A DNA stretch of 52,898 nt. It comes from an uncultured Pseudomonadota bacterium (GTDB lineage Bacteria; Pseudomonadota; Gammaproteobacteria; Methylococcales; Methylomonadaceae). Location of the stretch: the NCBI GenBank assembly GCA_903875455.1, contig CAIQWF010000220.1, forward strand, positions 1 through 52,898, in the 5' to 3' direction. The notes under the pieces are model-generated. The model made no database searches. It was not told the DNA's origin and saw nothing but the letters and a program-made list of their open reading frames with translations. This document shows positions 1-2,052 of this stretch, in pieces (within the stretch, counting starts at the first letter, position 1; each line of letters opens with the position of its first letter). The position numbers and the translations under genes were made by a program.

Positions 1-2
1 AA

Positions 3-131
3 ATCCTCTGGCGCAATGTGAAATATCAGTGGTTGCCTTTGTCGAGCTATTTTAGCTATGACAATTTGAAAAAATCCGTTTTAGAAGTGCTTTCAAGCTT
101 TGGTAGTAAATACCTGATAACTTTTGCTTAG
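3..131 (+). CDS. IS630-type transposase, C-terminal end (cut by window edge)
   Basis: An open frame enters from the left edge and stops at 129-131. Its 42 residues begin ILWRNVKYQWLPLSSY and end FGSKYLITFA. The pattern (bulky-W-x3-KYxW at the start, a helix, then FGxxYxIxFA at the end) matches the C-terminus of the IS630/Tc1-mariner-like DDE transposases. The catalytic core lies outside the window, so it cannot be said whether the element is intact. The terminal inverted repeat should lie just after the stop, but only one end is present and it cannot be confirmed. The identification rests on a short segment. Confidence 0.6.
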   Translation: MLWRNVKYQWLPLSSYFSYDNLKKSVLEVLSSFGSKYLITFA

Positions 132-262
132 ATACTTATATCAATCGGGAGTCGTCTCTGGAAATCATGGTACAGAAACCTGACGGAACAGTTATCAAGG
201 TGACAGGGAAAAATATCGGCACTAAAGAAGTTCAGCAGATTTTTACTGGCTTGAATAGCTAA
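131..262 (+). pseudogene. Orphan C-terminal coding tail next to the transposase
   Basis: A frame without its own convincing start continues to the stop at 260-262. Its last part reads SLEIMVQKPDGTVIKVTGKN followed by IGTKEVQQIF, a plausible beta-hairpin plus helix. It begins where the transposase frame ends, so it may be the tail of a gene whose front was displaced by the insertion. The only internal ATG (167-169) would give a 31-residue peptide. It lies 26 bases upstream of the caspase-FGE gene and could once have been its operon partner. No family is recognised. Confidence 0.3.
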
Positions 263-288: not shown

Positions 289-2052
289 ATGACCAATTAC
301 GCAGTTCTCATCGGCAATAGCGAATTTCCCAATGAGCCGAGTTTAAAGCCTTTATCTTGTCCGCCGCAGGATGTGGAGGGCTTGAAAGCGGTATTAACGG
401 CGGAAAATCGCGGCCAGTTTTTGGCGGACAATATCAGCGTGTTGGTGAATGCGGAAAGCAAACAAGTCGCCCGCGAAATTAATCGGGTGTTAAAAGCCGC
501 CGGGAAGGATGATTTGGTGTTGCTGTATTATTCGGGGCATGGCTTGCCGAATAACCGCAACAATCTGTTTTTATCCGCGCACGATACCGAGTCGGAATTA
601 TTGGAGTCCACCGCTGTGTCGTTTAATCAGATTTATGAGCTGATTAACACCTTTTATTGCAAAAAAATCATTATTATTCTGGATTGTTGTTATAGCGGCG
701 CGGCGGGCGCGGTGTTTAAGGGCGATATTCCTTCACAATTACAAACCATCAATGACAAGGTAACGGGGACGTTTTTGATTACCGCGACCTCGAATGACCA
801 AGTGGCAATTGATAAAACGGCAGATAGTCGGTTTAGTTTGTTTACCAAACATTTGATTGACGGCTTGGAGACTGGGGCGGCAGATACAGATGGCAATGGC
901 TGGATTTCAATTGATGAGTTGTTTCGCTATGTGTCGAAAAAAGTGACAGAGGACAATCCGAATCAAATACCAAAAAGATTTGGGAAAAATGAAACGGGAG
1001 AAATGGTTGTTGCCAAAAGTGGGCGTGATTCGCGCAAGGAAAAAAATGAAAAACTGGAGGCGTTTTTTCTTGATTTGAAAAAGGAGAAGCGAATAGCGAG
1101 AGATATTTTGCTGGCTGTTCTGGACATGCTTGAAAAAAAGGAATCTGACTTTTCGGCTATTGAAAAACAGCAGTATGAGTTGGTTTTGGCTGTTTATGAA
1201 AGCAAAATTGAATCGGTTGAGTTTGTTAGAAAATGGGACAAACTTTCCAGTCAGCCAGACCTTCCAGGTTTTAAAAACCTGGAAGGTCTAAAACCAGAAC
1301 CGCCGGTGATTATTACGCCGTCAAAAACCATTGCCGAACCGCCTGCAACCTGGCAATGTCCGGTTACGGGGATGGAGTTTGTCTTTATCAAACCCGGTAC
1401 GTTTATGATGGGCAGTCCTGAAAGTGAGGAGGGAAGAAGCGATGATGAAAGACTGCATCAGGTGACGATTGAAAAAGGCTTTTATTTGGGGAAATATTTA
1501 GTCACGCAGGCGCAATGGCAACAGGTGATGGGTAACAATCCTTCCAGTTTTGAAGGCGATAACTTGCCGGTTGAAACGGTAAACTGGAATGATGTGCAGG
1601 AATTTTTGCAAAAACTGAACGCTAAAGCCGATAAAAACTATCGTTTGCCCACTGAAGCCGAATGGGAATACGCTTGTCGTGCGGGAACAACCACGCCGTT
1701 TTCCTGTGGAGAAACCATTTCTACGGAGTTAGCCAATTACAATGGTAATGGTGTTTACGGGAAGGGCAAAAAAGGTGTTTATCGTCGGCAAACTACAGCG
1801 GTTGGCTCATTTCCTGCCAATTCTTGGGGCTTGCATGATATGGCAGGGAATGTGTGGGAGTGGACTTGCTCAGACTATTCTGAAAATTATGATGGCAATG
1901 AAACAAAATGCTCTAGCGGTTCTGGTACGCTGCGTGCTATTCGCGGCGGTTCGTGGTTCAGCCGCCCGAGGTGGTTGCGTTCTGCCTATCGTAACAGGAG
2001 CTATCCGACTTACCGCAGCTTCATCTTGGGTTTTCGTATTTCCAGGATGTAA
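289..2052 (+). CDS. Caspase-like protease fused to FGE-sulfatase (C-type-lectin fold) domain; candidate DGR target
   Basis: 587 residues with two domains. Residues 1-240 form a caspase/metacaspase-like (peptidase C14) domain, with the catalytic His84 in YYSGHG and Cys134 in LDCCYSG. Residues 245-325 are charged and probably helical. A Pro-rich linker follows, partly encoded by a palindromic repeat at 1257-1289. Residues 355-587 are an FGE-sulfatase/SUMF1-type domain, with FMMGSP, RLPTEAEWEYACRAG, GNVWEW and the terminal GGSW...GFRI. Proteins of this kind are proposed to link a recognition domain to a death-type protease in bacterial conflict systems. The last 40 residues show the codon pattern of a DGR variable repeat (separate entry). 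No signal peptide is seen, so it is presumably cytoplasmic. The protease and FGE domains are clear; the biological role is inferred. Confidence 0.9.
   Translation: MTNYAVLIGNSEFPNEPSLKPLSCPPQDVEGLKAVLTAENRGQFLADNISVLVNAESKQVAREINRVLKAAGKDDLVLLYYSGHGLPNNRNNLFLSAHDTESELLESTAVSFNQIYELINTFYCKKIIIILDCCYSGAAGAVFKGDIPSQLQTINDKVTGTFLITATSNDQVAIDKTADSRFSLFTKHLIDGLETGAADTDGNGWISIDELFRYVSKKVTEDNPNQIPKRFGKNETGEMVVAKSGRDSRKEKNEKLEAFFLDLKKEKRIARDILLAVLDMLEKKESDFSAIEKQQYELVLAVYESKIESVEFVRKWDKLSSQPDLPGFKNLEGLKPEPPVIITPSKTIAEPPATWQCPVTGMEFVFIKPGTFMMGSPESEEGRSDDERLHQVTIEKGFYLGKYLVTQAQWQQVMGNNPSSFEGDNLPVETVNWNDVQEFLQKLNAKADKNYRLPTEAEWEYACRAGTTTPFSCGETISTELANYNGNGVYGKGKKGVYRRQTTAVGSFPANSWGLHDMAGNVWEWTCSDYSENYDGNETKCSSGSGTLRAIRGGSWFSRPRWLRSAYRNRSYPTYRSFILGFRISRM
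1257..1289. repeat. 33-bp palindromic repeat read in frame as a linker
   Basis: A near-perfect palindrome starting AGACCTTCCAGG and ending CCTGGAAGGTCT. The same 33 bases recur exactly at 12845-12877 between convergent genes, and a relative occurs at 45228-45260. Here it lies inside the caspase-FGE gene and is translated as PDLPGFKNLEGLK between the helical region and the FGE domain. This suggests a mobile intergenic repeat that landed in a tolerant linker. Confidence 0.85.
1930..2049 (+). other. Candidate DGR variable repeat (VR)
   Basis: The segment encodes RAIRGGSWFSRPRWLRSAYR and then NRSYPTYRSFILGFRIS. Ten codons (TTC, AGC, TAT, AAC, AGC, TAT, TAC, AGC, TTC, ATC) all end in C or T and all differ from AAC/AAT only at the first two bases. 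They are interleaved with constant codons for GGSW, RSA, NR, P and GFR. DGRs produce this when adenines of AAC/AAT codons in a template repeat are randomised during reverse transcription. No template repeat or reverse transcriptase lies in the window, so the element acting on it, if any, is remote. Boundaries are approximate. Confidence 0.65.

Follow-up and report, generated by a model that had tools for sequence, protein, structure and literature searches.

A caspase-FGE fusion gene of a Methylomonadaceae bacterium with a candidate relict DGR variable region

DGR variable proteins with orthocaspase-like N-termini are known in cyanobacteria (PMC7517822), and FGE sensors diversified by DGRs have been described for conflict systems (PMC10907252, PMC7159879, and PMC8195603). 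Proteins with the domain pair metacaspase/FGE-sulfatase account for 33 of 671 in PMC3501461. Here, we describe a gene at the start of a 52,898-nucleotide stretch of DNA from an uncultured bacterium of the Methylomonadaceae (contig CAIQWF010000220.1, positions 1 to 52,898; from here on, the whole stretch will be referred to as the window), which resembles these proteins as the passages concerned describe them. As in the cyanobacterial proteins of PMC7517822, a caspase-type domain is combined with a C-type-lectin-like domain whose tail is of the DGR type, and the two domains follow each other in the order given in PMC3501461, where the passages on these proteins do not discuss DGRs. The gene shares with the Thiohalocapsa PB-PSB1 systems, as treated in PMC10907252, an FGE-type CLec tail as the proposed sensor and effectors of the caspase or TIR type. 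With the EACC1 two-gene conflict system (System 4 in the text of PMC7159879), it shares an EACC1-associated caspase, a C-terminal variable module and, in the genus, an EACC1-like gene upstream.

Domain structure of the caspase-FGE protein

The initial annotation described the ORF at 289-2052 (+) as a caspase-FGE fusion with intact His84 and Cys134, and we confirmed the ORF together with Pfam matches to both domains and found both residues on checking. The features of the gene are as follows.

289..2052, + strand: gene for a caspase, helical linker and FGE protein (ORF of 587 aa; first gene in the window)
295..975, + strand: caspase (Peptidase C14) domain, residues 3-229 (Pfam E 3e-20)
538-540 and 688-690, + strand: codons of His84 and Cys134, respectively (residues checked)
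1030..1248, + strand: linker with four predicted helices, residues 248-320 (AlphaFold2 model, pLDDT about 63-78)
1375..2040, + strand: FGE-sulfatase/C-type-lectin-like domain, residues 363-584 (Pfam E 1e-46)
1957..2028, + strand: variable-region-like tail of 24 codons, between GGSW and GFR, with ten core columns and retention of C at the third base

The caspase is of the EACC1-associated type (NCBIfam NF047832; 167 bits compared with a cut-off of 140). The AlphaFold2 model of the 587-aa protein (mean pLDDT 85.6, pTM 0.58) consists of the caspase, the four-helix linker, which is modeled with moderate confidence, and the FGE domain. The solved folds closest to the caspase part are those of MALT1 (Z 25.3, rmsd 2.6, 210 residues aligned) and plant metacaspases, and the residue check located a Cys133-Cys134 pair in addition to His84. 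We take Cys134 to be the catalytic cysteine by the DxCxSG pattern. Judged from its sequence and the model, the window protein, with a caspase fold and a His-Cys dyad, is a putative active caspase. The linker stretch comprising residues 243-322 was also matched in a TIR-FGE protein encoded in the same genome (contig C152; 46%).

The solved fold closest to the FGE part is PvdO (Z 31.8, rmsd 1.9, 230 residues aligned), followed by the Treponema denticola variable protein TvpA (2y3c; Z 31.2, rmsd 1.9, 220 residues aligned). The tails of TvpA and the window protein align, and the aligned tail of TvpA is presumably its variable region.

Codon signature of the tail and the search for a DGR

The initial annotation considered the tail to be a DGR variable repeat because ten of its codons are one or two adenine changes away from AAC or AAT. 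The ten codons do occur in the tail in the order listed; however, the list has no diagnostic value, since any NNY codon (third base C or T) can be turned into AAC or AAT by at most two changes at its first and second bases, and AAC itself is among the ten. Using 11 template repeats taken at related loci, we defined ten core columns as those in which six or more of the repeats have AAC or AAT; 12 of 115 tails were left out of the comparison since their spacing differs from 24 residues (the C152 tails are among these). The window tail has NNY codons at 9 of the 10 core columns, and scores of at least 9 are also reached by 38 of the 71 FGE tails that have no template in their locus, some of which may have been written from elsewhere. 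The codon count was, for this reason, rejected as evidence of a DGR.

DGR templates use AAC heavily (PMC12875486, in the part concerned), as do the 11 template repeats examined here, and, because a DGR keeps the third base of the template codon, C is predicted at the third base of the core columns. In the window tail, all nine NNY codons at core columns end in C compared with a share of 0.30 among the 193 NNY codons of the gene (binomial p = 2e-5; after codon-box correction, p = 5e-5 against the 34 other ORFs of the window and 1e-6 against the gene itself). Phenylalanine is encoded by TTC at both of its core-column sites and by TTT at all 25 others in the gene. The non-core part of the tail is T-rich (2 C of 8), random sets of columns from the same tail reached 9/9 in 8 of 5000 draws, and the pattern was unique to the tail among 11,908 starts in the frames of the long ORFs of the window. 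We note that the test was devised after the codons had been seen and that the signal is weaker with 12 columns, both TAT codons being included (p = 9e-4), or over all 24 tail columns (p = 0.045). Derivation of the whole tail from a GC-rich donor is unlikely because its C-richness is confined to the core columns.

The same property was compared between groups of tails, using only genes with a C share below 0.6 because C-rich genes give no power (9 of 19 DGR tails, 7 of 7 orthologues, and 5 of 5 tails from the genome itself). The nine DGR tails with sufficient power have 71 C of 81 at core columns, compared with 36.7 expected, whereas the seven stable orthologues have 27 of 54, compared with 24.8 expected, and thus no bias (Fisher 3e-6 between the two groups). 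We conclude that, as far as codon usage can tell, the window tail shows what appears to be a trace left by a template at its AAY columns.

The genome assembly comprises 3.49 Mb in 265 contigs and is 93.9% complete, and the window is its contig C220, at a contig edge. The reverse transcriptase (RT) and template repeat that the initial annotation proposed to look for, and whose absence it gave as the first of two joint grounds against its proposal, were not detected: no RT was found in the assembly with RVT_1, a DGR RT protein, or an alignment of nine DGR RTs, and the tail DNA has no second copy in it. Nor was a present-day template common to the paralogues of this genome seen, the next DNA match of the tail having an E value of 0.25. 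The 50 kb downstream of the gene and contig C183, the likely upstream neighbor, are also free of an RT. As positive controls, the DGR RT protein query found DGR RTs in two other genomes (G045 and G027), and the tail DNA of G045 found its own template at E 4e-34. RVT_1 detected two RTs in G001 and one in G002, both of the same genus; with the DGR model, those of G001 scored 52 and 50 bits and that of G002 nothing, and we took them to belong to other classes. Of the proposal that the tail is a DGR variable repeat, the template-type signature is thus borne out in the form of third-base C, but an operating DGR in this genome is not.

Among 150 other genomes, none contains a close DNA match to the window tail, and short matches at E ≤0.01 occur in 11. 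The best, 81% over 52 bases in G074, is to the tail of an FGE gene that has a DGR-type RT as its neighbor; two further matches are templates of G045 on its contigs C31 and C34 (73% over 75 and 62 bases, respectively). We rejected these matches as the template of the window tail, as they are too short and weak. By DNA similarity, the nearest kin of the tail include DGR loci.

Relatives of the FGE domain and of the caspase-FGE protein

In a tree built quickly from 132 FGE domains, their tails removed, the window FGE groups with five paralogues from its own genome, a protein of genome G024 and a row on a 3.3-kb contig (SH-aLRT 91). No member of this clade is known to be DGR-linked, and 13 of the 22 DGR rows fall into a different cluster, which is starred in the tree. 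The nearest FGE relative, on contig C40 of G024, has the third-base signature at 9 of 10 positions (p = 7e-4), and G024, which is 99% complete, has no DGR RT despite this signature. Among the own-genome paralogues, that on C109 has a weak third-base signature and those on C93 and C21 have none. In the sibling caspase-FGE gene on contig C171 (G000; L008 2160), third-base C is weaker, with 6/8 at the core compared with 2/9 elsewhere.

Core-column identity within the window's clade is 0.10 (5 pairs; body identity 0.64). The corresponding values are 0.46 in 20 pairs of orthologues and 0.05 in 8 pairs of DGR tails. The core columns of the clade are as variable as those of DGR tails, but paralogues may diverge there anyway, and, because unclassified pairs (0.14; 46 pairs) are DGR-like as well, core hypervariability is not proof of a DGR. 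Further, with a threshold of about 190 bits, a DGR-type RT is present in 6 of 15 signature-positive genomes versus 2 of 15 signature-negative ones (p = 0.21). Here, the positive group consists of genomes with tails at p < 0.01 and the negative group of 14 genomes with p > 0.3 and G020 (p 0.26); G171 (mixed), G155, G176, G001, G002, and G074 were left out, and the negatives L128, L135, and G035 also stand outside the groups. At the genome level, the signature and a DGR-type RT do not go closely together.

Two other loci are of note for their tails. In L117 (10681), the tail within an FGE gene consists nearly entirely of Asn codons and resembles an unmutated template. In L173, a single ORF contains two FGE domains (5219 and 6017) with identical 24-residue tails and bodies that are 68% identical, and, from their sequences, the tails look as if homogenised.

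Contig C92 of G045, a genome of the same order, carries two caspase-FGE genes together with an RT and a template. The full-length caspase-FGE protein encoded there is 34% identical to the window protein, and, of 18 mismatches of its variable repeat to the template, 16 coincide with template adenines, a sequence pattern that clearly marks this protein as a DGR target. Both C92 caspases score above the EACC1-type cut-off (150.5 and 167 bits). The second gene (L077 389-2524) is out of frame inside its variable repeat, which aligns with the template only when a one-base gap is allowed. L119 and L120, the latter from a cyanobacterium, are also caspase-FGE DGR targets (13/13 and 19/19 mismatches at adenines, respectively), whose caspases, at 78 and 59 bits, do not reach the EACC1-type cut-off. 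Because a DGR-type RT is present in 3 of nine genomes with a caspase-FGE gene that were examined for one (those of L113, L119, and L120), the architecture is found both with and without DGRs.

The EACC1-like gene and the neighborhood of the caspase-FGE gene

Two features precede the caspase-FGE gene in the window.

1..138, + strand: end of a multicopy insertion sequence with the last transposase residues, at the contig edge (by sequence comparison)
140..262, + strand: EACC1-like C-terminal remnant just upstream of the caspase gene, aligning with residues 75-117 of the G001 EACC1

The remnant at 140-262 is below the Pfam EACC1 cut-off, and the score of its alignment with the EACC1-like protein of G002 was reached by 0 of 1000 shuffles. 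The insertion sequence, which we take to be IS630-like, gave no Pfam match for residues 3-128; its end occurs in copies of 100% identity at 5 other sites of the genome and of 76-83% at 15 more, often at contig starts, and is probably responsible for many of the assembly breaks. A first part of EACC1, matching residues 1-77 of the G001 protein, is located at the end of contig C183, next to sequence that looks like the other end of an element of this kind, and no EACC1 match beyond these two parts was found in the genome at E 10. The two parts are most simply explained as one gene that an insertion has interrupted. Comparison of the sequences suggests that the EACC1 gene was probably split by the insertion sequence, and we infer from it that C183 and C220 are adjacent.

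Both same-genus genomes have an EACC1-like gene upstream of an EACC1-type caspase gene; the EACC1 of G001 is above the Pfam cut-off (37.2 bits versus 23.6) and that of G002 below it, and a Uma2 gene lies between EACC1 and the caspase gene in G001. The genome of the window also encodes two more caspase-FGE proteins (C171 and C93) and two TIR-FGE proteins (C152), and effectors and sensor modules seem to have been shuffled. In G001 (L091 2356-3837), an EACC1-type caspase carries the same linker, but its tail is Lcl_C (E 3e-19) instead of FGE. Downstream of the caspase-FGE gene in the window, at 2293-2902, a small ORF is followed by a gene for a PIN-domain protein (Pfam PIN, E 1e-11), an arrangement like that of an antitoxin-toxin pair.

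Because the retroelement is missing from the assembled genome, we regard a variable region that has become frozen as the best interpretation of the tail. We favor, with moderate confidence, the view that the window gene encodes an effector of the EACC1 type whose variable region is a DGR relict and that the DGR is gone from the assembled genome; an origin of the tail from a template and a subsequent loss of the DGR would be its history. The sensor tip would have been written in the past by error-prone copying of an AAC-rich template, with the first two bases changed and the final C kept, and would now be fixed, the caspase, with its C-terminal FGE sensor, being part of a two-gene conflict system of the EACC1 type. 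The FGE binding surface may bind an invader or stress ligand; ligand binding or clustering could bring the caspase domains together and activate them, and the activated caspase might then cleave itself or cellular targets, leading to cell death. The tail would, in this way, control a death-type protease, as the initial annotation supposed. Where intact, EACC1 would be the membrane-side partner, as proposed for the system in the text of PMC7159879. Because EACC1 is probably broken here, the system may be decaying. A wider version, which we put forward tentatively, is that a DGR wrote the tips of FGE domains in this lineage and was then lost while the tips were kept and the FGE modules were shuffled between caspase and TIR effectors. 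If so, cells devoid of a DGR possess ready-made sensors that were selected through one and are coupled to effectors.

The most serious competitor, though an unlikely one, is that the tail was never written by a DGR but is an ordinary ligand-binding loop, shaped by mutation and selection in lineage-specific paralogues, in which the C-endings reflect chance or codon choice. Such paralogues are expected to differ at a binding site, the window's FGE clade has no DGR-linked rows, NNY codons are common at the core columns of many tails, and the third-base bias also occurs in genomes with no detected DGR RT; this reading, however, fits poorly with the value of p = 5e-5 that remains after codon-box correction, with the restriction of TTC to core columns against 25 TTT elsewhere and a T-rich remainder of the tail, and with the lack of third-base bias in stable orthologues. 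It is less probable still that a working DGR, in an unassembled part of the genome or acting from elsewhere, is still rewriting the tail. The incompleteness and fragmentation of the assembly, the position of the window at a contig edge and an intact signature (9/9 NNY core codons) leave room for such an element, but three kinds of query found no RT, the DNA search found no template, neither the 50 kb downstream nor C183 holds an RT, and the EACC1 gene is probably disrupted. The Pfam family name would also accommodate a working formylglycine-generating enzyme that acts with the protease, and joint action of FGE and protease has been speculated on for such fusions in PMC3501461. We regard this as highly improbable, because the window protein has no cysteine from residue 552 to its end at 587, where aligned FGEs have their active-site cysteines (C336 and C341 mutants of formylglycine-generating enzymes are named in titles), and because its FGE part comes closest in fold to PvdO and the Treponema variable protein.

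The relict variable region, as we read it, differs from the described systems in several respects. The PMC7517822 proteins are presented there as DGR targets, whereas the assembly of the window genome lacks both RT and template and the caspase is of the EACC1 type. The sensors in the account of PMC10907252 are mostly NTPase or vWA proteins linked to effectors; the window protein is, in contrast, one polypeptide, and no DGR was found for it. Section 33 of PMC7159879 includes neither FGE (FGS) among the C-terminal modules it names nor a DGR, and, unlike in the EACC1 system, EACC1 is probably split at the window locus. The solved chain of TvpA, unlike the window protein, has no protease domain. 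Within the text of the open-licence literature, we know of no paper that links a DGR to an EACC1-type caspase; as far as this search goes, the DGR-written FGE on an EACC1-type caspase in G045 is new. In G045, where such a caspase is fused to a variable region with the template and RT adjoining, ligand recognition could be studied together with activation of the protease on a single polypeptide. The window is the likely aftermath of such an arrangement, as its gene, which is also new in this respect, seems to keep the writing without the writer. Further, third-base C retention at template columns may serve as a simple candidate test for fossil variable regions. Overall, we conclude that the combination of a caspase-FGE protein and a DGR is close to published systems and that the link to EACC1 and the frozen state are probably the new parts.
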